From positions 62,001 through 126,000 of the forward strand of contig NZ_QXXQ01000002.1 in the NCBI RefSeq assembly GCF_003570715.1: 64,000 nt of DNA. The letters are read 5' to 3'. Under the pieces are notes generated by a model. That model saw only the letters and a program-made list of their open reading frames with translations. It was not told the origin of the DNA and ran no database searches. Position 1 is the stretch's first letter. Each line of letters opens with the position of its first letter. The position numbers were made by a program, and so were the translations under genes. Below are positions 39,270 through 54,212 of the stretch, in pieces. The DNA is from Gemmobacter lutimaris (GTDB taxonomy: Bacteria; Pseudomonadota; Alphaproteobacteria; Rhodobacterales; Rhodobacteraceae).

Positions 39270-39482
39270 AAGCAGTAGGGTCTTGAAACCTATTGTCAAA
39301 ATCATGTCGCGCCAAAGATGATTTACAAATTTCAGATATATCGAGTTAAAGAATTTACATAAAAAATCAATTTACAAAAGGGGTTACATGATTGCCGTAA
39401 AATGGTTTACAATACTTGCAGGGATGGAGGTGCCTCGCGGTTCAGGCGGGGTGACCGGCTTTATGCAAGAGGGGGAGAGCCC
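39270..39482 (+). promoter_or_regulatory. AT-rich control region with repeated TTTACA motifs upstream of acs
   Basis: The DNA at 39290-39412 is far richer in A+T than anything else in the window. TTTACA occurs at 39322, 39354, 39371 and 39406, with the variant GTTACA at 39383. Spacings are 32, 17, 12 and 23 bases. The 5' part of this 300-base gene-free stretch (39183-39269) shows nothing clear beyond a GACGTTACGTC near-palindrome. The region most likely binds one or more regulators of the acetate operon; no promoter hexamers can be fixed. Confidence 0.55.
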
Positions 39483-41450
39483 ATGACCCAGCAGCCCGCC
39501 GATATCGCGTCGATGGTGCGCGATGTGCCCACGGATTTCGACAAGGCCCATGCCGACACCGCCAAATATCGCGCGATGTATGCCGAATCCATTGATGACC
39601 CGGATGCCTTCTGGGGGCGCGAGGGGCAGCGGCTCGACTGGATCAAGCCCTATACGAAGGTAAAGAACACCGATTTCACCTTTGGCAAGGTCAGCATCAA
39701 GTGGTTCGAGGATGGCGTGCTGAACGCCTCGGTGAACTGCATCGACCGGCACCTGAAGGACCGTGCGCTGCAAACCGCCATCATTTTCGAACCCGATGAC
39801 CCGAAGACCCCGGCCCAGCATATCACCTACAAGGAACTGTCCGAAAAGGTGAACCGCATGGCCAACGTCCTGCTGTCGCAGGGCGTGATGCGCGGTGATC
39901 GTGTGGTGATCTATCTGCCGATGATCCCCGAGGCCGCCTATGCGATGCTGGCCTGCGCGCGGATCGGCGCCATCCATTCGATCGTTTTCGCCGGGTTTTC
40001 GCCCGACGCGCTGGCGAACCGGATCAACGATTCCGGCGCCAAGCTGGTCATCACCGCCGATACCGCCCCGCGCGGCGGCCGCCGCACCCCGCTGAAATCG
40101 AACACCGATGCGGCTCTGCTGCATTGTTCCGATAAGGTGCGCTGCCTTGTGGTCAAGCACACCGGCGACCAGATCACCTGGATTCAGGGCCGCGATGTGG
40201 ACGTCAAGCTGATGATGGACATGGTCAGCCCGGAATGCCCTCCGCGCCCGATGGGGGCGGAAGATCCGCTGTTCATCCTTTACACTTCGGGTTCAACCGG
40301 CAAGCCGAAGGGCGTGGTGCATACGACGGGCGGCTACCTCGTCTATGCCTCGATGACGCATCAATATACCTTCGACTATCAGGAAGGCGACGTGTTCTGG
40401 TGCACGGCCGATGTGGGTTGGGTCACCGGGCACAGCTACATCGTCTATGGCCCGCTGGCCAATGGCGCGACGACGATCATGTTTGAGGGCGTGCCGACCT
40501 TCCCCGATGCCGGACGGTTCTGGGAGGTCTGCGAAAAGCATGCCGTGACGCAGTTCTACACTGCGCCGACCGCCATCCGGTCTCTGATGGGCATGGGTGC
40601 GGAATGGGTCGAGAAGTACGACCTGTCGAAGCTGCGCATCCTCGGCTCGGTGGGCGAACCGATCAACCCCGAGGCATGGGCCTGGTATGATACCCATGTC
40701 GGCAAGGGCAAATGCCCCATCGTCGATACCTTCTGGCAGACGGAAACCGGCGGTCACATGATCACCCCGCTGCCCTATGCCACCCCCACCAAGCCGGGTT
40801 CGGCCACGCTACCCTTCTTCGGGGTGAAGCCGGTGGTGCTGGATGCGGCGACTGCCAAGCGGCAGGATGAGGTGGAAACCGAAGGTGTGCTGTGCATCTC
40901 GGATAGCTGGCCGGGGCAGATGCGCACGCTCTGGGGCGATCATGACCGCTTCCAGGAAGCCTATTTCGCCCAGTATCGCGGCTATTACTTCACCGGCGAC
41001 GGCTGCCGCCGCGACAAGGACGGATATATCTGGATCACCGGCCGGGTGGATGACGTGATCAACGTCTCCGGTCACCGGATGGGCACGGCCGAGGTGGAAA
41101 GCGCGCTGGTCGCCCATGCCGCTGTGGCCGAGGCCGCCGTCGTCGGCTTCCCGCACGACATCAAGGGGCAGGGCATCTACGCCTATGTCACGCTGATGAA
41201 CGGGATCGAGCCGTCCGAGGATCTGCGCAAGGATCTGGTGAAATGGGTCCGCACCGAGATCGGTCCCATTGCCTCGCCCGACATCATCCAATGGGCGCCG
41301 GGCCTACCCAAGACCCGCTCGGGCAAGATCATGCGCCGCATCCTGCGCAAGATCGCCGAAAACGACTTCGGCTCGCTGGGCGATACCTCGACGCTGGCCG
41401 ATCCTTCGGTGGTCGATGACCTGATCGCCAACCGCGGCAACAAGGGCTGA
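39483..41450 (+). CDS. acs: acetyl-coenzyme A synthetase
   Basis: ATG 39483 ([20 protein letters not shown]), preceded by GGGGGAG, gives 655 residues. It converts acetate + ATP + CoA to acetyl-CoA + AMP + PPi. The P-loop [20 protein letters not shown], the WWTADVGW-like [19 protein letters not shown], the hinge [16 protein letters not shown] and the C-terminal catalytic lysine in [15 protein letters not shown], the usual acetylation site, are present. Its TGA overlaps the start of a second adenylate kinase, and symporter genes follow. Confidence 0.97.
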
Positions 41451-42142
41451 TGCGCATGACCGACGCCACGACCCTGACGCGCCCCGCCGTCCTGATCCTT
41501 CTTGGCCCTCCGGGCGCCGGGAAGGGCACACAGGCCCGCATGCTGGAAGAGGATTTCGGTCTGGTGCAGCTTTCCACCGGCGATCTTCTGCGCGCGGCCG
41601 TGGCGGCGGGCACCGAGGCCGGCAACCGCGCCAAGGCAGTGATGGAGGCCGGGCAGCTTGTGTCTGACGAGATCGTGCTGGCGATCCTGAAAGACCGCAT
41701 GTCGCAGCCCGATGTGGCGCGCGGCATCATTCTCGACGGCTTTCCTCGCACCGCGGGGCAGGCCGCCGCGCTGGACGATCTGCTGGCCGCGACCGACCAG
41801 AAGGTCACCGCCGCCATCAGCCTTGAGGTTGATGACGAGGCGATGGTGGGCCGGGTGTCCGGCCGCTACACCTGCGCCGGTTGCGGCGAGGGGTATCACG
41901 ACGAATTCAAGCAGCCCGCCGTTGCGGGCACTTGCGACAAATGCGGCGGCACGACGTTCAAGCGCCGGGCCGACGACAATGCCGAGACGGTGCGCGAGAG
42001 GCTGTCCGCCTATCATGCCCAGACGGCGCCGCTGATCGCCTATTACGACGGCAAGGGCGTTCTGGAACGGATCGACGCGATGGGGGCCATCGACCAGATC
42101 CGCAGAACGCTTTCCGCCATCGTGAGCCGCGTTTCGGCATAA
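41450..42142 (+). CDS. adenylate kinase with zinc-binding LID (second copy)
   Basis: A 230-residue adenylate kinase overlapping the acs stop by one base (TGATG); MTDATTLTRPAVLILLGPPG from ATG 41456 is an alternative. P-loop [15 protein letters not shown] site STGDLLRAAV and DGFPRTAGQAAAL. The LID has CAGC...CDKC (C-x2-C, 17 residues, C-x2-C), a zinc site absent from the 194-residue Adk at 17759. Position and coupling suggest it removes AMP made by Acs. The frame is intact, so it is probably functional. Confidence 0.93.
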   Translation: MRMTDATTLTRPAVLILLGPPGAGKGTQARMLEEDFGLVQLSTGDLLRAAVAAGTEAGNRAKAVMEAGQLVSDEIVLAILKDRMSQPDVARGIILDGFPRTAGQAAALDDLLAATDQKVTAAISLEVDDEAMVGRVSGRYTCAGCGEGYHDEFKQPAVAGTCDKCGGTTFKRRADDNAETVRERLSAYHAQTAPLIAYYDGKGVLERIDAMGAIDQIRRTLSAIVSRVSA

Positions 42143-42205: not shown

Positions 42206-42463
42206 ATGGCGGACAAGTCCTCGTCGAATGCCTACTGGGCCGCGAACATCCGCACGATCATGATTTATCTGGTCGTCTGGTTCGTCTGCTCGTTCGGCTT
42301 CGGCATCCTTCTGCGTCCGATGCTTGCGGGCATCAAGATCGGCGGCACCGATCTGGGCTTCTGGTTTGCCCAGCAAGGTTCGATCCTCGTCTTTCTCGTC
42401 CTCATCTTCGCCTATGCCGCGCGGATGAACAAACTCGATCGCCAGCACGGCGTGGAAGAATAA
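42206..42463 (+). CDS. DUF4212 small subunit of a sodium:solute symporter
   Basis: An 85-residue protein with two helices (about 17-40 and 50-72). The N-terminal AYWAANIRTIMIYLVVWF, with loop FGILLRPMLAGIKIGGTDLGFWFAQQGSI, is the DUF4212 signature. It is always found just before a VC_2705-type SSS transporter and is thought to be its partner. GGGAG Shine-Dalgarno; 15 bases before the large subunit. Confidence 0.93.
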   Translation: MADKSSSNAYWAANIRTIMIYLVVWFVCSFGFGILLRPMLAGIKIGGTDLGFWFAQQGSILVFLVLIFAYAARMNKLDRQHGVEE

Positions 42464-42478
42464 GGGAGCACGGGAAAC

Positions 42479-44221
42479 ATGGATCAGTTTACCCTCAACC
42501 TCCTGGTGGTGGGCGCGACCTTCGCGCTTTACATCGGGATCGCGATCTGGGCCCGCGCGGGTTCGACCGCGGAATTCTATGCTGCCGGCCAGGGTGTTCA
42601 CCCTGTCATGAACGGCATGGCCACCGGCGCCGACTGGATGTCGGCTGCCTCGTTCATCTCGATGGCTGGCATCATCGCCTTCGGCGGCTACGATACCTCG
42701 GCCTATCTGATGGGCTGGACCGGCGGCTATGTGCTGCTGGCCATGCTGCTGGCGCCCTATCTGCGCAAGTTCGGCAAGTTCACCGTGCCGGAATTCATCG
42801 GGGACCGCTTCTATTCGGGCACCGCGCGTTTCGTCGCGGTGGTCTGCCTCATCATCGCTTCGGTGACCTATGTGATCGGGCAGATGACCGGCGTGGGCGT
42901 TGCCTTCTCGCGCTTCCTTGAAGTGTCGAATGCGACCGGCCTTTATATCGGTGCGGCCATCGTGTTCGCCTATGCCGTGCTTGGCGGCATGAAGGGCATC
43001 ACCTACACGCAGGTTGCGCAATATGTCGTGCTGATCATCGCCTATACCATTCCGGCGGTCTTCATCTCGCTGCAACTGACCGGCAATCCGATCCCGGCGC
43101 TGGGCCTGTTCTCGAACGAGGTTCACACCGGCCAGCCGCTGCTTCAGACGCTGGAAGGTCTGGTCACCGATCTGGGCTTCAAATCCTACCTGAACCAGTC
43201 GGACACCACGCTGAACATGTTCCTGTTCACCATGTCGCTGATGATCGGCACCGCCGGCCTTCCGCACGTCATCGTCCGCTTCTTCACCGTGCCGAAGGTT
43301 TCGGACGCGCGGTCTTCGGCGGGCTGGGCACTGGTGTTCATCGCGCTGCTGTATCTCACCGCCCCGGCGGTTGCGGCCATGGCGCGTCTGAACCTGATCA
43401 ACACGATCTACCCGCAGGGTGTGGCCGCCGCGCCGGTGTCGATGGCCGACATCGAAGGCAAGGAAGAACTCGCCTGGGTTCGTAACTGGGCCAAGACCGG
43501 CCTGCTGACCTTCGAGGACAAGAACGGCGACGGTCTTGTGCAGTATGTCGGCGACAAGGAAGTCAACGAGCTGACCGTGAACAACGACATCATGGTGCTC
43601 GCCAACCCCGAAATCGCCAATCTGCCCGGCTGGGTGATCGCGCTGGTCGCTGCCGGTGGTCTTGCCGCCGCGCTGTCCACCGCTGCCGGTCTGCTGATGG
43701 CCATTTCCTCGGCCGTGTCGCATGACCTGATCAAGGGCCAGCTGAACCCCAACATCTCGGAAAAGAACGAGCTGCTGGCGGCCCGGATCTCGATGGGCGT
43801 GGCCATCGCGGTTGCGACCTACCTTGGCCTCAACCCGCCCGGCTTCGCGGCGCAGACGGTGGCGCTTGCCTTCGGTCTGGCGGCCTCGTCGATCTTCCCG
43901 GCGCTGATGATGGGCATCTTCTCGAAGCGCATCAACAACAAGGGTGCCGTTGCGGGGATGCTGGCGGGTCTGATCGTGACGATCGTCTACATCTTCCTGC
44001 ACAAGGGCTGGTTCTTCGTCGCGGATACCGCGTCCTTCTCGGACAGCGCGCCGATGCTCCTGTCGATCAAATCGACGTCCTTCGGTGCGGTGGGTGCCCT
44101 GATCAACTTCGCCGTCGCCTTCGCGGTGTCCAGTGCCACGGGCGCCCCGCCCGCCAAGGTGCAGGATCTGGTGGAATCGATCCGCGTGCCGAAAGGCGCC
44201 GGTGCGGCCCAGTCGCACTGA
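42479..44221 (+). CDS. sodium:solute symporter, VC_2705 family (acetate/short-carboxylate uptake)
   Basis: A 580-residue SSS-family carrier, about 13 helices. AEFYAAGQGVHPVMNGMATGADWMSAASFISMAG and the TAGLPHVIVRFFTV motif are close to ActP acetate permeases (the latter motif within the sodium site). A large hydrophilic insert at about residues 320-370 contains the EF-hand-like loop DKNGDGLVQYV. With acs and DUF4212 adjacent, acetate or propionate is the probable substrate. Confidence 0.92.
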   Translation: MDQFTLNLLVVGATFALYIGIAIWARAGSTAEFYAAGQGVHPVMNGMATGADWMSAASFISMAGIIAFGGYDTSAYLMGWTGGYVLLAMLLAPYLRKFGKFTVPEFIGDRFYSGTARFVAVVCLIIASVTYVIGQMTGVGVAFSRFLEVSNATGLYIGAAIVFAYAVLGGMKGITYTQVAQYVVLIIAYTIPAVFISLQLTGNPIPALGLFSNEVHTGQPLLQTLEGLVTDLGFKSYLNQSDTTLNMFLFTMSLMIGTAGLPHVIVRFFTVPKVSDARSSAGWALVFIALLYLTAPAVAAMARLNLINTIYPQGVAAAPVSMADIEGKEELAWVRNWAKTGLLTFEDKNGDGLVQYVGDKEVNELTVNNDIMVLANPEIANLPGWVIALVAAGGLAAALSTAAGLLMAISSAVSHDLIKGQLNPNISEKNELLAARISMGVAIAVATYLGLNPPGFAAQTVALAFGLAASSIFPALMMGIFSKRINNKGAVAGMLAGLIVTIVYIFLHKGWFFVADTASFSDSAPMLLSIKSTSFGAVGALINFAVAFAVSSATGAPPAKVQDLVESIRVPKGAGAAQSH

Positions 44222-44303
44222 CCGGGTAAAGGCTGCGGGTTTGATCTGGCGCATTGCGCGCCATCCGGTCCGGCCCGCACCCTGACCCGAACACCATCCG
44301 GCG

Positions 44304-44322
44304 CGCCCCCTTTGTGGGGGCG
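44304..44322 (+). other. hairpin between the symporter and the cNMP/CBS gene
   Basis: A 7-bp stem CGCCCCC/GGGGGCG with loop TTTGT, 25 bases before the next ATG and without a U-tract. It may stabilise or tune the upstream transporter message relative to the regulatory genes. Confidence 0.45.
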
Positions 44323-44346
44323 TGTCCCCCCCGAAGGACGACGGTC

Positions 44347-46176
44347 ATGCCCCATTCCCCCGACGAGGCCGTTCTGGCCTTCCTCGAAACCGTCCATCCC
44401 TATGACAGCCTGCCGCGGGACGAGATGGCGCGTGTCGCCGTTTCCTTCAGCCGCAGGGAATTTTCTGCCGGGGAAGAGGTCTATCAGGCGGGTGAACCGC
44501 TGAAGGGCCTTTATCTGGTCAAGCGTGGCGCGGTCGAGGTGCTGGATGCCTCGGGCATGCAGGTCTCGCTGCTGGGTCCGCGCAACAGCTTTGGTGAACG
44601 CGGTCTGATGCGGGACGGTCTGGCGGTCACCACGGCGCGGGTCATCGAAGATTCCGTGCTTCTGCTGCTACCCACGGCAGAGTTCCGTCGCCTGATCGCG
44701 GGTTTCCCGGCCTTCGACCGCTTCTTCCATCGTGGCAGGTCCGCCGCCGAGGCGCGTCGCGCCGATCTGACGGTGCAAAAGGTGGGCGACCTGATGGCGC
44801 GCAAGCCGATCACTGTGGCGCCTGCCGACAGCATCCGCCTTGCCGCCGAAAAGATGCGCGACGCGCATGTCTCGTCGCTGGGCATTGTCGAGGAGGGTCG
44901 TTTTCTGGGCATCGTCACAACGCGGGATATGACCAACAAGGTGTTGGCGGGCGGTATCGACCCGGAAAGCCCGGTGTCGCAGGTGATGACCGCCGATCCG
45001 GTCAGCCTGCGGCCTGACGATCTGGGCTCGGACATCCTGCATGTCATGCTGGAGCGTCGCATCGGCCATCTGCCGGTGGTCGAGGATGGTCGGCTGGTCG
45101 GCATGATCACCCAGACCGACCTGACCCGGTTTCAGGCCGTCAGTTCGGCGCAACTGGTGCGCGACGCGGCAACCGCTGAAAGCGTGGCTGAAATGGCCGC
45201 CGTTACCGCGCGTATCCCGAAGCTGCTGGTGCAGCTTGTGGGCGGTAACAATGCGCATGAGGTGGTGACCCGTCTGATCACCGACATAGCCGATACCGTG
45301 ACACGCCGCCTGCTGGCGCTGGCCGAGGCCGAGCTTGGCCCGGCGCCCGTGCCCTATGTCTGGGCCGCCTGCGGCAGTCAGGGGCGGCAGGAACAGACAG
45401 GTGTGTCGGATCAGGACAATTGCCTGATCATCGACGACCGTGCCACCGATGCGGATATGGGCTATTTCGCCCGGCTGGCGCGCTTCGTCTGCGACGGGCT
45501 GGATGCCTGCGGCTATGTCTATTGCCCCGGCGACATGATGGCGACCAACCCGCGCTGGTGCGCACGGCAATCCACATGGCGCGGCTATTTCGACGGCTGG
45601 ATCGCCACGCCCGATCCAATGGCGCAGATGCTGGCCAGCGTCATGTTCGACCTGCGCCCCATCGGCGGGCAGGCATCGCTTTACCGTGACTTGCAGGCCG
45701 AGACGCTGGAACGGGCGGCGCAGAATTCGATCTTCGTGGCGCATATGATTTCCAACAGTCTGAAACATACGCCGCCCCTTGGCCTGTTGCGTGGCTTCGC
45801 CACCATCCGCTCGGGCGAGCACAAGAACCACATCGACATGAAACACAACGGCGTGGTGCCGGTGACGGACCTTGGCAGGGTCTATGCGCTGATCGGCAAG
45901 CTGGAGCCCGCCAATACCCGCGCCCGGCTGGACGCGGCGGAACATGCCGGGGTGATTTCCGTCTCTGGCGCGCGCGACCTGATCGAGGCTTATGACCTGA
46001 TCGCCCAGACCCGGCTTGAAAATCAGGCCCGGCTCATCCGTTCGGGTCGCAAGCCCGATAATTTCCTTGCCCCCTACGACCTGTCGGATTTCGAGCGCAG
46101 CCACCTGCGCGACGCTTTCGTCGTGGTGCGCACAATGCAATCCGCCATCGGGTCCGCCCGTGGCGCAAGAAGCTGA
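44347..46176 (+). CDS. cNMP-binding, CBS-pair, DUF294 nucleotidyltransferase-like protein
   Basis: ATG 44347 follows AAGGACG (the frame runs 93 bases further). Residues about 15-135 are a cyclic-nucleotide-binding domain (NSFGERGLMRDGLAV). About 150-275 are two CBS motifs (VSSLGIVEEGRFLGIVTTRD; IGHLPVVEDGRLVGMITQTD), which bind adenosine ligands such as AMP/ATP. About 310-450 are DUF294 with GSQGRQEQTGVSDQDN, a G-S...D-x-D nucleotidyltransferase core. A C-terminal DUF294_C helical part completes it. Probably an energy sensor or modifying enzyme of the acetate module. Confidence 0.9.
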   Translation: MPHSPDEAVLAFLETVHPYDSLPRDEMARVAVSFSRREFSAGEEVYQAGEPLKGLYLVKRGAVEVLDASGMQVSLLGPRNSFGERGLMRDGLAVTTARVIEDSVLLLLPTAEFRRLIAGFPAFDRFFHRGRSAAEARRADLTVQKVGDLMARKPITVAPADSIRLAAEKMRDAHVSSLGIVEEGRFLGIVTTRDMTNKVLAGGIDPESPVSQVMTADPVSLRPDDLGSDILHVMLERRIGHLPVVEDGRLVGMITQTDLTRFQAVSSAQLVRDAATAESVAEMAAVTARIPKLLVQLVGGNNAHEVVTRLITDIADTVTRRLLALAEAELGPAPVPYVWAACGSQGRQEQTGVSDQDNCLIIDDRATDADMGYFARLARFVCDGLDACGYVYCPGDMMATNPRWCARQSTWRGYFDGWIATPDPMAQMLASVMFDLRPIGGQASLYRDLQAETLERAAQNSIFVAHMISNSLKHTPPLGLLRGFATIRSGEHKNHIDMKHNGVVPVTDLGRVYALIGKLEPANTRARLDAAEHAGVISVSGARDLIEAYDLIAQTRLENQARLIRSGRKPDNFLAPYDLSDFERSHLRDAFVVVRTMQSAIGSARGARS

Positions 46177-46182
46177 GGCCAG

Positions 46183-46704
46183 ATGCTGTTCGAATTCCTT
46201 GCCGCGATCATCGCCGCCGCGACCTGTGCGGGCATCGTCTGGGGCCTGCGCAAGGCCATGCCCAATCGCGTGCCCAAGGTGGCGCTGCCTGTGGCTGCGG
46301 GGCTTGGCCTGATCTGCACCACCATGGCGCTGGAATACGGCTGGTATGACCGCACGGTGGCGAACCTGCCCGCAGGGGTCGTGGTGGTCGATCAGGGCTC
46401 GGGGCAACAGATGCTGCGCCCCTGGACCTACCTTGCGCCGATGACGACGCGCTTTACCGCGCTGGATACCCGCAGCATCGCCCCGCATCCGGGCAATCCG
46501 GCACTGCGGCTGGTGAGGACCTATGAATTTGCCCGCTGGCGGCCCGTGGAGGACGGGTTTCTGGCGGTGGACTGCGCCGCCGTGCGGCGCGTGCGGATTA
46601 CCGAGGGGATGGAGATTCTGCCTGACGGCACGCTTTCGGGCGCCGAATGGCAGGCTGCCGCCCCCGATGATCCAGTAACGAGGGCGGCCTGCCAGGAGGG
46701 ATGA
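46183..46704 (+). CDS. small membrane-anchored hypothetical protein
   Basis: A 173-residue protein with two N-terminal helices (about 2-20 and 34-52) and a soluble, probably periplasmic domain of about 115 residues containing QQMLRPWTYLAPMTTRFTALDT. Not recognised. It starts 6 bases after the cNMP/CBS gene, and its stop is one base before the next ATG, so it belongs to the same operon and may link the sensor proteins to the membrane. Confidence 0.7.
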   Translation: MLFEFLAAIIAAATCAGIVWGLRKAMPNRVPKVALPVAAGLGLICTTMALEYGWYDRTVANLPAGVVVVDQGSGQQMLRPWTYLAPMTTRFTALDTRSIAPHPGNPALRLVRTYEFARWRPVEDGFLAVDCAAVRRVRITEGMEILPDGTLSGAEWQAAAPDDPVTRAACQEG

Positions 46705-46705
46705 T

Positions 46706-47095
46706 ATGGCCGAGGACGGGAGGAAACACCGTATCCTTGTCGTGGAGGACGAGGATAACATCGCCATCGCGCTGGATTTCCTGATGACGCGCGAGGGCTA
46801 TGCCCATGATCGGGTCGCCAATGGCGCCGAGGCCATGCCGCGCATTCGCGCCACGCACCCCGATCTGGTGCTGCTGGACGTGATGTTGCCCGAGGTTTCG
46901 GGATACGAGATCTGCCAGTCGGTGCGGCTTGACCCCGCGCTGGCGGATGTGAAAATCCTGATGATGACCGCGCGCGGTTCGGCCATCGAGCGGCAGAAGG
47001 GCATCGCGCTGGGCGCCGACGGGTTTATTTCGAAACCCTTTGAACTGAAGGAGTTGCGACAGGAGGTCCGTCGCCTTCTGCAAGGCGAGGGTTGA
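46706..47095 (+). CDS. single-domain response regulator (CheY-like receiver)
   Basis: A 129-residue receiver without output domain. The acidic pair E14/D15 (VVEDEDN), phospho-acceptor D58 (LVLLDVMLP), T88 (MMTARG) and K110 (SKPFEL) are all present, so phosphorylation should be possible. AGGAGGG five bases before ATG. The following gene encodes a kinase-like sensor that seems to lack its own histidine, so the phosphodonor is uncertain. Confidence 0.93.
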   Translation: MAEDGRKHRILVVEDEDNIAIALDFLMTREGYAHDRVANGAEAMPRIRATHPDLVLLDVMLPEVSGYEICQSVRLDPALADVKILMMTARGSAIERQKGIALGADGFISKPFELKELRQEVRRLLQGEG

Positions 47096-47098
47096 GCG

Positions 47099-49168
47099 GT
47101 GTTGCACAAGCTGAGCCTGCGTCTGCGCATCTTCCTGATCTTCGCGGCCCTTGGCCTTGGCGCGCTGGTGGCGCTGGCGGCGGGGCTGGTGCTTGGCTTT
47201 CAGCGGCTGGGCAGCCCCGAAACCCTGTCGGCCTTCGTGCAGGTGGGGGTGATTGCCGGGCTGGTGATCCTCGGGCTGATCACCTGGGTCTGGTATCTGT
47301 TCGACGTGAATGTGGCCAAGCCCATCGACATTCTGGCCGGGGCCCTGCGTGCCCGCGCACATTCCGATGTCAGCGGCGAGATGGATACCGCCATTGCCCG
47401 CTATCTGGGCGATCTGGCACCCGCTGCCACGGCCGCCGCCGCCTCGCTGGCCGAGACGCGGAATGCGCTGGCCGAGGCCGTCGCGCGCGAGACGACGCGG
47501 CTGGCGGCCGAAAAATCGCGGCTGGAGGCGCTGTTGTCCGACGTGCCGGTGGGGGTGCTGCTGTGTTCGGGGGAACATCAGATCGCCTTCTACAACACGC
47601 CCGCCGCCGGGCTTCTGGGCGGTGATACCGCGCCGGGGCTGGACCGTTACCTGTTCGACTATCTGCGCGAGGGGCCGGTGCGCCATGCCCATCGCCGTCT
47701 GATCGAGGCGGGGGATGCCGATGCGGCCTCTGACATCCTCTGCTCCACGCGCAGCGGCGGGCAGGTGCTCGCCGCCCGGATGCGTCTGATCGAGGGTGCG
47801 GGTGGTCCGCCGGGCTATGTGCTGACGCTGCGCGACGTGACCGCCGATCTCGCGACCCGCGCGCGGCGCGATGCGGCGCTGTCGGTCGCGCTGGATCGTA
47901 TCCGCCGTCCGACCGCAAATCTGATGACGCTGTTCGGCGTGCTACCCGAGGGTGAGGCCGTTCCCGCCCGGATGGAAAGCGCGATGCGGCAAGAGGTGAC
48001 GGGGCTGTCGGCGGCGGTGAAAGACCTGAGCCACCACCACGACGAGGATCGCGCCGAGGGATTGCCGCTGGCCCCCGCCCGCGCGCTTGATCTGTTGGAT
48101 GGTATGCGCGCCCGGCTGGAGGGGCAGGGTCTTGCGGTGGAAACCGCCGAGGCCGCACCGCTTTTGATGCGGTGCAACGGGTTCGAGCTGATCGCGCTGG
48201 TCGGTCATCTGGGCCAGCGCCTTGCGGCGACCGGGCATCCGGCGCCCTTCCACCTGAGGCTGGACGAGGCCGGGGCCGATGCCCGCGTTGTGCTGGGCTG
48301 GCAGGGGGCGGCGCTGTCGCTGACCACGCTGGATGGCTGGCTGGCCGAGCCTTTGGGCGAGGAACTGCCCGACATCACCGGGCGCAGCGTGCTGGCCGCC
48401 CATGCCACTGACATCTGGCCAGAGGGCACGAATGGCAGCCAGAGCCTTGTGCTGCCGCTGCGCGCCGCGCGTCGCGCTGGTCCGCGCCCGGCCCCGGTGC
48501 CGCGCGCGGTGGTCTATGATTTCGACCTGATGTCGAAGGCGCGCAATGCGCCGGTGGCCGATACGCGGCTGGAAGACCTGACCTTCGTGGTATTCGATAC
48601 CGAAACCACCGGCCTTCTGCCCGCGCAGGGCGACCAGATCGTGCAGATCGCCGCCGTCCGCATCGTCAACGGCAAGCGCGTGGCGGGCGAGGTGTTTGAC
48701 ACACTGGTCAACCCCGGCCGCCCGATCCCGCCCGGATCGACCACCGTTCACGGCATCACCGATGCCATGGTGGCCGAGGCGCCGGGCATCGCCGAGGTCG
48801 GCCGCGCCTTCCATAAATTCGCCGAAGGGGCGGTGCTGATCGCCCATAACGCGCCCTTCGACATGGAATTCCTGCGCCGGCAAGAGGCGGCGATCGGTGC
48901 CCGTTTCGATCATCCGGTGCTGGATACCGTGCTGCTGTCGGCCGTGATCTATGGCCAGCATGAGGTGCACAGCCTCGATGCGCTGACCCACCGGCTTGGC
49001 ATCACCATCCCCGAGGAGGCGCGCCATACCGCGCTGGGCGATACTGTCGCTACCGCCGATGCCTTCCTGAAGCTTTTGCCGATGCTGAAGGGCCGGGGGC
49101 TGGATACCTTCGGCGCCGTGGTGGCCGAGGTGCGTCGCCATGGCCGCCTGCTGAAGGATCTGAACTAG
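47099..49168 (+). CDS. membrane PAS/histidine-kinase-like sensor fused to a DEDDh 3'-5' exonuclease
   Basis: GTG start, 3 bases after the receiver gene; 689 residues. Two helices (about 9-32 and 45-68), a HAMP-like coil, a PAS-like domain (about 140-245; LLSDVPVGVLLCSGEHQIAF), then ALSVALDRIRRPTANLMTLF, which aligns with a histidine-kinase dimerisation helix but has no histidine, and a weak ATPase-like part to about 460. Residues about 495-689 are a DnaQ-type exonuclease with D500/E502 (FDTETTGL), D588 (HNAPFDMEF), H643 and D648 (HTALGD), all catalytic residues intact. Similar exonucleases neighbour acs/actP genes elsewhere. Confidence 0.85.
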   Translation: MLHKLSLRLRIFLIFAALGLGALVALAAGLVLGFQRLGSPETLSAFVQVGVIAGLVILGLITWVWYLFDVNVAKPIDILAGALRARAHSDVSGEMDTAIARYLGDLAPAATAAAASLAETRNALAEAVARETTRLAAEKSRLEALLSDVPVGVLLCSGEHQIAFYNTPAAGLLGGDTAPGLDRYLFDYLREGPVRHAHRRLIEAGDADAASDILCSTRSGGQVLAARMRLIEGAGGPPGYVLTLRDVTADLATRARRDAALSVALDRIRRPTANLMTLFGVLPEGEAVPARMESAMRQEVTGLSAAVKDLSHHHDEDRAEGLPLAPARALDLLDGMRARLEGQGLAVETAEAAPLLMRCNGFELIALVGHLGQRLAATGHPAPFHLRLDEAGADARVVLGWQGAALSLTTLDGWLAEPLGEELPDITGRSVLAAHATDIWPEGTNGSQSLVLPLRAARRAGPRPAPVPRAVVYDFDLMSKARNAPVADTRLEDLTFVVFDTETTGLLPAQGDQIVQIAAVRIVNGKRVAGEVFDTLVNPGRPIPPGSTTVHGITDAMVAEAPGIAEVGRAFHKFAEGAVLIAHNAPFDMEFLRRQEAAIGARFDHPVLDTVLLSAVIYGQHEVHSLDALTHRLGITIPEEARHTALGDTVATADAFLKLLPMLKGRGLDTFGAVVAEVRRHGRLLKDLN

Positions 49169-51774: not shown

Positions 51775-53190
51775 TTGGCAATCGGGGACATCGGCGATCT
51801 TGTGGCGCGCTCGGCGATCGAGCTGGCGGCGCTGCCCTTCACGCCCTTCGCGGACAGTGTCATCCGGTTGGGCGTCACCGGCCTGTCGCGGGCGGGCAAG
51901 ACGGTGTTCATCACCGGGCTGGTGGCCAATCTGCTGGATCGCGGACGGATGCCGCAGCTTCGCGCCGCGGCCGAGGGCCGGATCGAGGCTGTATGGCTGC
52001 AACCCCAACCTGACGACACGATTCCACGCTTCGACATCGAGGGCCATCTGACGCAGATGACCGGAGATACCCCGGAATGGCCGGAAAGCACACGGGCTAT
52101 TTCGGAACTGCGGCTGTCCTTCCGGGTGCGGCCGACCGGCCTGCTGTCCGGGATGCGCGGCACACAGAACGTGCATCTGGACATCGTGGATTATCCCGGC
52201 GAATGGCTGCTGGATCTGGGCCTGCTGGACAAGACCTATGCCCAATGGGCCGAGGATACGCTGTCGCGTATGGCGCGGCGGCCGCAGGGGGCAGAATTTC
52301 TGGCGACCGCGCGGGCCGAGGACGGGTCTTTGAAACATGATGAGGCGCGGGCACAGGCGCTTGCGGCCAAATTCACCGCCTATCTGCATGCGGCGCGCAC
52401 GGCGGGCTGGTCGGATTGCACACCGGGGCGGTTCCTGCTGCCGGGCGAGCTTGCGGGCAGCCCCGTCCTGACCTTTGCGCCTCTGCCAGAACCCGCCAGC
52501 GCCGGGCGTGGTAGTCTGTGGCACGAAATGGCGCGGCGCTATGACGCCTATCGCGCCAAGGTGGTGAAGCCCTTCTTCCACGACCATTTCGCCCGGATCG
52601 ACCGTCAGGTGGTGCTGGTGGATGTGCTGGGCGCGGTCCATACCGGGCCACAGGCGCTGGAGGATTTGCGCCGCACCATGGCCGACATCCTGACCGCCTT
52701 CCGTCCGGGACAGAACGGTCTTTTGTCGCGGCTGGTGCTGGGGCGGCGGGTCGAGAAGATCCTGTTCGCCGCGACCAAGGCCGATCACCTGCACCACAGT
52801 CAGCACCCGCAACTCACCGCCATCACCGAGGCGCTGGTGCGCGAGGCGCGTGACCGTGCGGCGTTTTCGGGGGCCGAGGTCAGCGCCATGTCGCTGGCAG
52901 GCTTTCGCGCCACGGTCGAGGATCGGCTGGAACGCGACGGGCAGATACTGGATGTGGTGCGTGGCAGGTTGATGGGATCGGGCAAGCAAGCCGCGATGTA
53001 TCCGGGTGAATTGCCCACCGATCCCGCGCGCCTGCTGTCGCCCGCCCGGCAGGGGGCCGAACGCTGGCTGGACGCCGACTTCGCGCTGATGAGTTTCGCG
53101 CCCGCGCGCAGCAGTCTGAAACCCGGCGAGGGGCCGCCGCATATCCGGTTGGACCGCGCCGCCGAATTCCTGATCGGAGACCGGCTGTGA
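51775..53190 (+). CDS. ycjX: YcjX-family GTP/ATP-binding protein
   Basis: TTG start preceded by AGGGGGCAGG; 471 residues. The P-loop GLSRAGKTVFITGLVANL is at residues about 35-52, followed by the DIVDYPGEWLLDLGLL switch region and the ATKADHLHHSQH motif, all hallmarks of the YcjX family (COG3106). E. coli ycjX lies next to ycjF under stress control. Its stop overlaps ycjF by four bases. Molecular function is not established. Confidence 0.9.
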   Translation: MAIGDIGDLVARSAIELAALPFTPFADSVIRLGVTGLSRAGKTVFITGLVANLLDRGRMPQLRAAAEGRIEAVWLQPQPDDTIPRFDIEGHLTQMTGDTPEWPESTRAISELRLSFRVRPTGLLSGMRGTQNVHLDIVDYPGEWLLDLGLLDKTYAQWAEDTLSRMARRPQGAEFLATARAEDGSLKHDEARAQALAAKFTAYLHAARTAGWSDCTPGRFLLPGELAGSPVLTFAPLPEPASAGRGSLWHEMARRYDAYRAKVVKPFFHDHFARIDRQVVLVDVLGAVHTGPQALEDLRRTMADILTAFRPGQNGLLSRLVLGRRVEKILFAATKADHLHHSQHPQLTAITEALVREARDRAAFSGAEVSAMSLAGFRATVEDRLERDGQILDVVRGRLMGSGKQAAMYPGELPTDPARLLSPARQGAERWLDADFALMSFAPARSSLKPGEGPPHIRLDRAAEFLIGDRL

Positions 53191-54212
53191 GTGATGACGT
53201 CCCCCCCCGCCGCCCGCTGCTGATCGAACTGGACGAAGCCGCGCCCGCCGATCCGGGCCTTGCCCCGCCGGTGCCCGAAGCCGGTATCGCCGCCGAACTG
53301 GCGCCTCTGCCAACCCGGCGGCAGAGCCTGACGCTGACCCGCGCGCTTATCTGGGCGCTGGGGGCGCTGTTCAGCTTTGCGCTTTCGGTTGCCACCTATG
53401 ATTTCGTCGCCAGCCTTATGGCCAGCTCCCCCTGGCTGGGATGGGGCGCGCTTGTGCTGACGGGTGTTGCCACCGGGCTTGCGCTGATCTTCGCCGCGCG
53501 TGAATGGATTGCCTATCTGCGGCTCTCTCTTCTGGACAAGCTGCGCGGACGCGCGCTGGCGGCGCGCCAGAACGCCGACCTGCATGCCGCGCGCATCGCC
53601 TGTGCCGAGGTCGCCTCGCTGTATCGTCACCGCCCCGAGGCGGCGCCTGCGCTGCAACGGCTGCGTGACCGGCAGGGCGATGTGCTGGATGCCGATGCCC
53701 TGATCGACCTGACAGAACAGGAATTGCTTGCACCGCTGGACCTTGCCGCCCGGCGCGAGATCGAAGCGGCGGCGCGGCAGGTCGCCACCATCACCGCGCT
53801 GGTGCCGATGGCTCTGGCCGATGTGGCGACGGCGCTGTTTGCCAATCTGCGCATGATCCGCCGCATCGCGCAGCTTTACGGCGGGCGCTCGGGCGGATTC
53901 GCCAGTTTCGGCCTGTTGCGGCGGGTCTTCACCTATCTGGTGGCCACGGGCGCCGTGGCACTGACCGACGATCTGATCGGTTCGGTCGCGGGCGGTGGCG
54001 TGCTGTCCAAGATTTCGCGCCGCTTTGGCGAGGGGGTGGTGAACGGCGCGCTGACCGCGCGCATCGGTGTGGCGGCGATGGAGCTGTGCCGTCCCCTGCC
54101 GTTCCACGCGCTGCGCCGTCCGCAAGTGACCAATCTCATGGCGCGGGCGCTGGCCGGGGTGTTTGACCGCAGCCCAGTTGCGCAAGCCGCCGCCCGAAAC
54201 ATGGAATCCTGA
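53187..54212 (+). CDS. ycjF: YcjF-family (TIGR01620) membrane protein
   Basis: A 341-residue protein starting at GTG within the ycjX stop (GTGA). Two helices (about 52-75 and 85-107) follow a proline-rich N-terminus. The conserved C-terminal DUF697-like part includes VPMALADVATALFANLRMIRRIAQLYGGR and MELCRPLPFHALRRPQV. It is the constant partner of YcjX; both are thought to act in envelope stress. Confidence 0.88.
   Translation: MSDDVPPRRPLLIELDEAAPADPGLAPPVPEAGIAAELAPLPTRRQSLTLTRALIWALGALFSFALSVATYDFVASLMASSPWLGWGALVLTGVATGLALIFAAREWIAYLRLSLLDKLRGRALAARQNADLHAARIACAEVASLYRHRPEAAPALQRLRDRQGDVLDADALIDLTEQELLAPLDLAARREIEAAARQVATITALVPMALADVATALFANLRMIRRIAQLYGGRSGGFASFGLLRRVFTYLVATGAVALTDDLIGSVAGGGVLSKISRRFGEGVVNGALTARIGVAAMELCRPLPFHALRRPQVTNLMARALAGVFDRSPVAQAAARNMES

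Follow-up and report, generated by a model that had tools for sequence, protein, structure and literature searches.

A histidine-less, kinase-like membrane protein fused to a predicted DEDDh exonuclease co-occurs with an adjacent receiver gene in Gemmobacter lutimaris and its relatives

The subject of this analysis is a gene for a fused protein in a stretch of 64,000 nucleotides from Gemmobacter lutimaris (contig NZ_QXXQ01000002.1, positions 62,001 to 126,000), which we call the window and from whose first letter all positions are counted. An earlier sequence-only reading had described the protein as a kinase-like membrane sensor that lacks its histidine and continues in one frame into an exonuclease with a complete active site. 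Overall, this interpretation is partly supported by our data: what stands is a histidine-less sensor that is tied to a receiver and fused to a complete exonuclease. The link to the receiver is stronger than was visible from the sequence alone, as the adjacent receiver gene and the helical hairpin of the kinase-like part appear and vanish together. The features of the locus are as follows, beginning with the fused gene and its predicted parts.

47099..49168, plus strand: fused protein of 689 residues with a GTG start, comprising two transmembrane helices, a PAS-like domain, a pseudo-histidine-kinase and a DEDDh exonuclease
47123..47299, plus strand: pair of membrane helices near residues 9-34 and 42-67 (hydropathy peaks)
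47540..47836, plus strand: PAS-like domain, residues 148-246 (PAS_4 E 0.00099, under cut-off; strands in the model)
47840..48061, plus strand: DHp-like helical hairpin without histidine, residues 248-321 (AlphaFold, PDB profile matches, Foldseek)
47894..47911, plus strand: motif D266-R-x-R269-R270-P271, with D266 at the place of the kinase histidine (VicK alignment)
48071..48475, plus strand: CA/HATPase-like domain without recognizable ATP-binding boxes, residues 325-459
48581..49093, plus strand: DEDDh 3'-5' exonuclease domain, residues 495-665 (RNase_T E 3.7e-37, residues 497-656)
46706..47095, plus strand: single-domain response regulator (receiver), 129 residues (PF00072 E 7.9e-26)
46183..46704, plus strand: protein of 173 residues with a hydrophobic N-terminal stretch (hydropathy) and no assigned family
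44254..46176, plus strand: DUF294 nucleotidyltransferase with cNMP-binding and CBS domains (Pfam, synteny), whose real start is probably downstream of the TTG
42479..44221, plus strand: sodium/solute symporter of the VC_2705 family (TIGR03648 E 7.5e-249)
42206..42463, plus strand: symporter small subunit (TIGR03647 E 4.5e-32)
41450..42142, plus strand: syntenic gene, presumably adenylate-kinase-like as judged from its sequence
39402..41450, plus strand: acs, acetate--CoA ligase (TIGR02188, over cut-off)

The genes from acs through the receiver all lie upstream of the fused gene and on its strand. As the sequence-only reading had noted, the stop codon of the receiver gene is found 3 bases ahead of the GTG of the fused gene, and the phosphorylation residues of the receiver (E14, D15, D58, T88, and K110) are complete. 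The frame of 689 residues (47099-49168) is free of internal stops, and a relative that is 96% identical (L002) possesses an ATG at the place of the GTG. A sequencing or frame anomaly is ruled out, the frame being unbroken in 73 aligned relatives. Among the matches listed, the closest named relative is that of Gemmobacter caeni, with 97% identity over the PAS-pseudokinase region. The two membrane helices and the PAS-like domain of the earlier description were upheld: the AlphaFold model starts with long helices at residues 7-37 and 40-88, and PF00989 reached its cut-off in three of seven scanned relatives (L199, L201, and L206).

The kinase-like nature of the middle region was more difficult to establish, and the window protein itself gave no HisKA or HATPase match in Pfam at E <= 1. 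A profile built from 41 relatives (residues 90-484) matched kinases of known structure (VicK, E 1.6e-9; ThkA, E 6.8e-5) in a collinear fashion, running from the PAS domain through the DHp and into the CA domain. Sub-threshold matches to HisKA (E 0.0019 and 0.01) and to HATPase_c (E 0.052 and 0.15) were each seen in two of the seven distant relatives scanned, one of which (L198) has both in the right order. AlphaFold, supplied with a 74-row alignment, predicts two helices (248-281 and 290-321) followed by a CA-like domain (325-459) with a predicted local distance difference test score (pLDDT) of about 90. An isolated model of residues 247-461 reached a pLDDT of 91, and its top Foldseek match in the PDB by E-value was DivL (4q20, E 9e-10); the CA-like domain matched kinase catalytic cores. 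The weak ATPase-like region of the earlier description was likewise borne out, and the kinase-like fold that it expected between residues 250 and 460 is supported by the PDB profile, by AlphaFold, and by Foldseek.

The absence of the histidine from the dimerization helix is real. In the profile alignment, the histidine of VicK (4i5s) stands opposite D266, and none of the 116 rows with at least 55 hairpin residues carries a phosphoacceptor histidine at columns 264-268. The site is not merely empty, as had been thought, since an acidic residue occupies it in 100 of these hairpins (52 Glu and 48 Asp; the other hairpins have 5 Pro, 3 Ala, 3 Thr, 2 Ser, and one each of Gly, Met, and Gln). A canonical H box was found in none of the 116 hairpins. 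The G1 pattern DxGxG occurs in two of 129 CA-like regions, and a G2 pattern occurs anywhere in the region in nine of 129 rows; that of the window protein (GQGLA, residues 342-346) lies well ahead of the G2 place, and the other eight were not placed. The absence of the N box was judged by eye. Homologues with an intact histidine box, which the sequence-only reading had named as evidence against itself, did not turn up: a search for an intact-kinase ancestor in the family, class, and phylum samples revealed no histidine box among the 116 exonuclease-fused hairpins. From its sequence and modeled structure, the middle region thus appears to be a kinase by descent and predicted fold and no kinase by chemistry; in all rows examined it reads as a pseudokinase, in which the histidine has usually been replaced by an acidic residue.

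Two further observations concern this region. Six rows that form a lineage (L342-L347) possess a histidine five residues past the kinase position, at the place of the conserved proline (LRRHGASL, LRQHTASL). A search with the N-terminal region found matches in 44 of 101 genomes, and also weak-E matches to proteins of 730-890 residues; the one of the latter that was read (L053) proved to be an NtrY-like kinase whose histidine box is intact and which has no exonuclease, and another weak match of the same search (L051) has the exonuclease.

The C-terminal domain is a complete exonuclease as judged from its family profile and active-site residues, and its activity is predicted. D500, E502, D588, H643, and D648 are all present in the same frame, as originally stated, and D500, E502, and D588 are found in 181 of 181 aligned rows; H643 is present in 180 and D648 in 179, the remainder being gaps. 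Foldseek matched the domain to DNA polymerase III epsilon, the PolC exonuclease, exonuclease X, and RNase T. The G. lutimaris genome contains two more RNase_T proteins (G000:C53:108452-108907, in a frame of 582 residues, and G000:C76:42034-42513, in a frame of 240 residues). Within the class, the exonuclease also occurs in other membrane contexts with a DUF294 gene alongside: in L205, L208, and L211 it is fused to what looks by eye like a whole EamA/DMT-type transporter, and in L202, L209, and L210 it directly follows one or two hydrophobic helices, again judged by eye. Since the exonuclease is thus joined to bare helices and to EamA-like transporters as well, membrane localization seems to matter by itself.

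To count these features, we used samples at three taxonomic levels. A relative was detected at E <= 1e-60 in 183 of 394 genomes of the bacterial family to which the window belongs; the exonuclease was detected at E <= 1e-35 in 31 of 385 genomes of the class sample and at E <= 1e-30 in 63 of 398 genomes of the phylum sample, both of which contain members of the window's family. The family sample consists of 134 distinct proteins taken from loci with listed places (the 183 genomes and those of the N-terminal search), near-copies by protein end having been removed before counting. The pseudokinase fusion is present in 11 of the 20 class loci read, and seven loci without PAS and pseudokinase (L202, L205, L208-L211, and L213) were left out of the counts. 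Thirty-six of 40 phylum loci were taken as belonging to the fusion family, with L348, L349, L352, and L353 set aside as other exonucleases. For the loci of the class and phylum samples, receiver states were assigned manually, and a weak receiver (L200, E 3.5e-10) was scored as present. A long form with a broken frame (L015) is counted among the short rows; it and the near-copy of the window (L002) are excluded from the trees. Within the phylum, further families and classes also have the fusion, in many cases with a DUF294 neighbor. One record (L238, CP059262.1) is titled as a metagenome-assembled genome of Exiguobacterium profundum and contains a locus of the Rhodobacteraceae type; its label looks wrong.

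The presence of the hairpin and that of an adjacent receiver gene are correlated, and this is the strongest new evidence that we obtained. In the family sample, a receiver gene lies at most 800 bases upstream and on the same strand in 71 of 83 long forms and in none of 51 short rows, one of which (L050) has a receiver on the far side of the DUF294 gene. The hairpin is shortened in ten of the 12 long forms that lack a receiver; R269 is present in 69 of the 71 receiver-bearing long forms versus two of the 12 receiver-less ones. The phosphorylation site of the receivers is kept too, with D58 (the window's included) and K110 each found in 70 of 71. One receiver has lost both the Asp and the Lys (L100) and another part of the acidic pair (L096), and in both loci the hairpin motif deviates too; in L098 and L120 the hairpin motif deviates although the receivers retain Asp and Lys. 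The same picture was obtained at greater distances, a receiver being present upstream of ten of 11 class pseudokinase forms (the exception is L197) and in 32 of 36 phylum rows (the exceptions are L326, L335, L340, and L355). In L335 and L340, which encode proteins of 646 residues in another class, precisely the hairpin is gone (four residues are left) and the CA-like domain is retained; the receiver is absent, and symporter-like and DUF294 genes are still in place. Since these two are close relatives with the same genus code, they represent one event. Of the other two exceptions, L326 keeps the hairpin, and L355, which has no stand-alone receiver, shows a hairpin region unlike that of any relative between flanks that align, as would be seen after paired frame changes.

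Taking all 181 proteins together, the state of the hairpin with Arg269 agrees with that of the adjacent receiver in 175 (108 with both, 67 with neither); scored by hairpin length alone, 111 have both, 64 neither, one the receiver only, and five the hairpin only. A Pagel test of correlated evolution, run on a quick tree with a midpoint root and a flat root prior, gave a likelihood ratio (LR) of 46.9 (p 1.6e-9), with a rate of receiver loss of 7.2 after hairpin loss versus 0.045 otherwise. Eight independent pairs could be drawn for the hairpin with Arg269 when starred branches were used; on average, 4.8 of them were concordant, 3.2 showed no difference, and none was opposed. An initial tree with 145 rows, scored for presence of the pseudokinase, yielded three starred pairs (median p 0.25), along with five parsimony changes, three of which are forced by starred branches.

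A number of observations weigh against a functional coupling of receiver, pseudokinase, and exonuclease. Four proteins have a receiver without Arg269 or a full hairpin (L090, L120, L329, and L351), and in two (L197 and L326) the hairpin persists although no receiver gene adjoins. Independent events are few, eight of the 12 receiver-less long forms being one clade, and the Pagel p value is therefore overstated; the independent pairs yield a median p of 0.0625 for the hairpin with Arg269 and of 0.25 (five pairs) for length alone. The correlation of tree distances, used to look for gradual co-evolution of receiver and hairpin, is not robust: it singles out the hairpin only owing to seven diverged rows and falls to 0.02 once these are removed, whereupon the pair of receiver and exonuclease ranks top at 0.41. 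Short forms exist without receiver and pseudokinase, so that the exonuclease does not everywhere depend on them. The off-site histidine of L342-L347 is a candidate phosphoacceptor, and all six of these genes adjoin a receiver. On the structural side, the Foldseek matches have modest TM-scores, of about 0.47, and a large root-mean-square deviation, and the whole-protein model (predicted TM-score 0.40) leaves the placement of the exonuclease relative to the pseudokinase unpredicted.

Weighing these points, we consider it probable, with considerable room for doubt, that the receiver docks in a DivL-like manner on the dead kinase and thereby controls a membrane-tethered DEDDh exonuclease in the same chain. 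The flow of information would then be reversed relative to an ordinary two-component system. The receiver encoded upstream, probably when phosphorylated by another donor, would dock on the histidine-less DHp hairpin; docking, together with PAS and membrane input, would alter the geometry of the dimer, and this in turn would change the activity of the C-terminal exonuclease or the access to it. The acidic residue at the histidine site may fix the hairpin in one state, which is a guess on our part. Acetyl phosphate is a possible phosphodonor of the receiver; the genome encodes homologues of acetate kinase and phosphotransacetylase, which show no more than that this donor could be present. The substrate may be 3' ends of RNA or DNA, or a nucleotide added by the DUF294 enzyme. 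The physical docking, its dependence on phosphorylation (which the co-occurrence supports indirectly), its effect on the nuclease, and the substrate are what we infer, whereas the order of the domains, the missing kinase residues, the complete exonuclease, the neighborhood, and the correlated occurrence of hairpin and receiver emerge directly from sequence, fold prediction, or comparative genomics.

Signals might instead flow in the forward direction, with the pseudokinase holding, sequestering, or dephosphorylating a receiver whose targets lie elsewhere and the exonuclease being separate, constitutive, and merely tethered. We regard this as unlikely, while still the most serious competitor. 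Tethering without an adjacent receiver does recur, in fusions of transmembrane helices and a PAS domain to the exonuclease, of transmembrane helices to the exonuclease, and of EamA-like transporters to the exonuclease. DivL, moreover, is reported to stabilize DivK~P in vitro (PMC4211667). Against the forward flow, receiver and hairpin stay tied to the fused protein across families and classes, and loss of the hairpin usually goes along with loss of the receiver, as would be expected if the fused protein were the receiver's main target. HisKA phosphatases carry an acidic residue after the histidine. A phosphatase action is disfavored here by the residue that follows the lost histidine, which is mostly Arg (48 of 71) and not acidic.

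The gene neighborhood bears on a second alternative. In 17 of 20 loci from the window's family (8-16 kb each), acs, the symporter, DUF294, the 173-residue protein, and the fused exonuclease follow each other in this order, which places the module next to genes for activating and taking up acetate. This order and the 183 of 394 family genomes with a relative speak against a chance arrangement. Outside the family, within the fetched stretches, DUF294 lies near the exonuclease in 16 of the 20 loci of the class and in 26 of the 36 of the phylum, and acs in one of 20 and 13 of 36, respectively; the complete order from acs over the symporter to DUF294 is thus typical of the window's own family and is partial elsewhere. 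The 173-residue protein, which has no Pfam and no NCBIfam family over cut-off, is encoded at 130 of the 134 distinct loci of the family, whether or not a receiver is found. Further downstream, at window positions 53187-54212, a TIGR01620 (HI0043 family) protein is encoded just after a frame of 471 residues that has no NCBIfam match and resembles YcjX.

The recurrent DUF294 neighbor would fit a scheme in which it writes and the exonuclease erases the same nucleotidyl mark, carried by RNA or protein, with the pseudokinase and the receiver setting the balance according to the supply of acetate or pyruvate. Two published findings are in keeping with this: in Pseudomonas putida, the gene for an RNase_T exonuclease shares an operon with one for a CBS-domain protein (PMC9927547), and a related cAMP-binding/CBS/nucleotidyltransferase protein is predicted to nucleotidylate (PMC5715377). 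We nevertheless find the scheme rather improbable, since deletion of the P. putida exonuclease gene slowed growth on pyruvate and deletion of its operon partner did not (PMC9927547), and since DUF294 was unseen in four of 20 class and ten of 36 phylum loci, some of those stretches being short.

That the kinase-like part and the receiver are functionless leftovers and the exonuclease alone matters is most improbable: the exonuclease stays through the five changes of pseudokinase state (read as losses, their direction not having been inferred) and no pseudokinase-less row has an adjacent receiver, yet several families and classes show conservation of the hairpin motif and of the receiver Asp and Lys, and in unused domains one would hardly expect R269 to persist in 69 of 71 cases or D58 in 70 of 71.

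Returning to control of the exonuclease by a docked receiver, a broader version has, in our estimate, roughly even chances of being right: that nucleases gated directly by a receiver, with a dead kinase of the same polypeptide as the intermediary, exist throughout the phylum and let a membrane signal reach RNA, DNA, or nucleotidyl marks with no need for transcription, DUF294 being a possible writer. Two-component systems are mostly known to control transcription, second messengers, or motility. A nuclease under direct control of a receiver, if true, would represent a novel type of effector, and the fusion family offers a natural experiment that is spread over the phylum and comprises several changes of state.

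Among the papers listed from the open-licence PubMed Central literature, judged by title and the start of the abstract, no sensor-exonuclease fusion is described. Several known systems resemble its parts. VicK and ThkA (by profile) and WalK (by Foldseek) share the order of PAS, DHp, and CA domains; these kinases possess the histidine and the ATP boxes, the histidine of VicK being seen opposite D266 in our alignment, whereas the fusion family has neither. NifL, which is among the Foldseek matches (9qq6), is a kinase-like redox sensor that acts by protein contact and inhibits a transcription activator; it differs in having no nuclease. With DnaQ/DNA polymerase III epsilon and PolC, the exonuclease shares the DEDDh fold and residues (identities of 30-31% and 38% by Foldseek); unlike these, it stands outside a polymerase and is joined to a membrane sensor.

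A counterpart in gene context is PP_0353 of P. putida, a stand-alone RNase_T exonuclease encoded in an operon with the CBS-domain protein PP_0354 and a target of MxtR/ErdR (= CrbS/CrbR) (PMC9927547). Its deletion delays growth on pyruvate and not on acetate, deletion of PP_0354 affects neither, and the authors speculate on mRNA degradation (PMC9927547). Both systems combine an RNase_T exonuclease with an adjoining CBS-domain gene in an acetate/pyruvate context, with actP as a neighbor of the P. putida-type genes in some species (PMC9927547). The likeness is one of description, and the available text on PP_0353 reports no sensor or receiver part (PMC9927547), whereas the fusion adds a membrane anchor and, in many lineages, a pseudokinase and a receiver gene. 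The fusion provides a setting for this unexplained exonuclease, without which P. putida does not grow normally on pyruvate.

For the proposed mechanism, the closest parallel is DivL of Caulobacter, whose kinase core has no kinase activity and binds DivK~P via the ordinary docking surface; the substitution R553A abolishes this binding, and Y550H at the histidine site leaves it intact (PMC4211667). DivL-DivK and the fusion have in common a PAS domain followed by a DHp and CA core without the catalytic histidine, a single-domain receiver partner, and the docking arginine: by its spacing from the histidine site, R269 is the counterpart of DivL R553. The DivL-like docking surface of the fusion is a prediction from R269 and the hairpin. 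DivL has a Tyr at the histidine site, where the fusion family mostly carries Asp or Glu, and its output is the kinase CckA, whereas that of the fusion would be the exonuclease of the same chain. DivL has served as the model for a flow from receiver to pseudokinase, and the extent of its use in nature is what the authors of the DivL study suggested "warrants further investigation" (PMC4211667).

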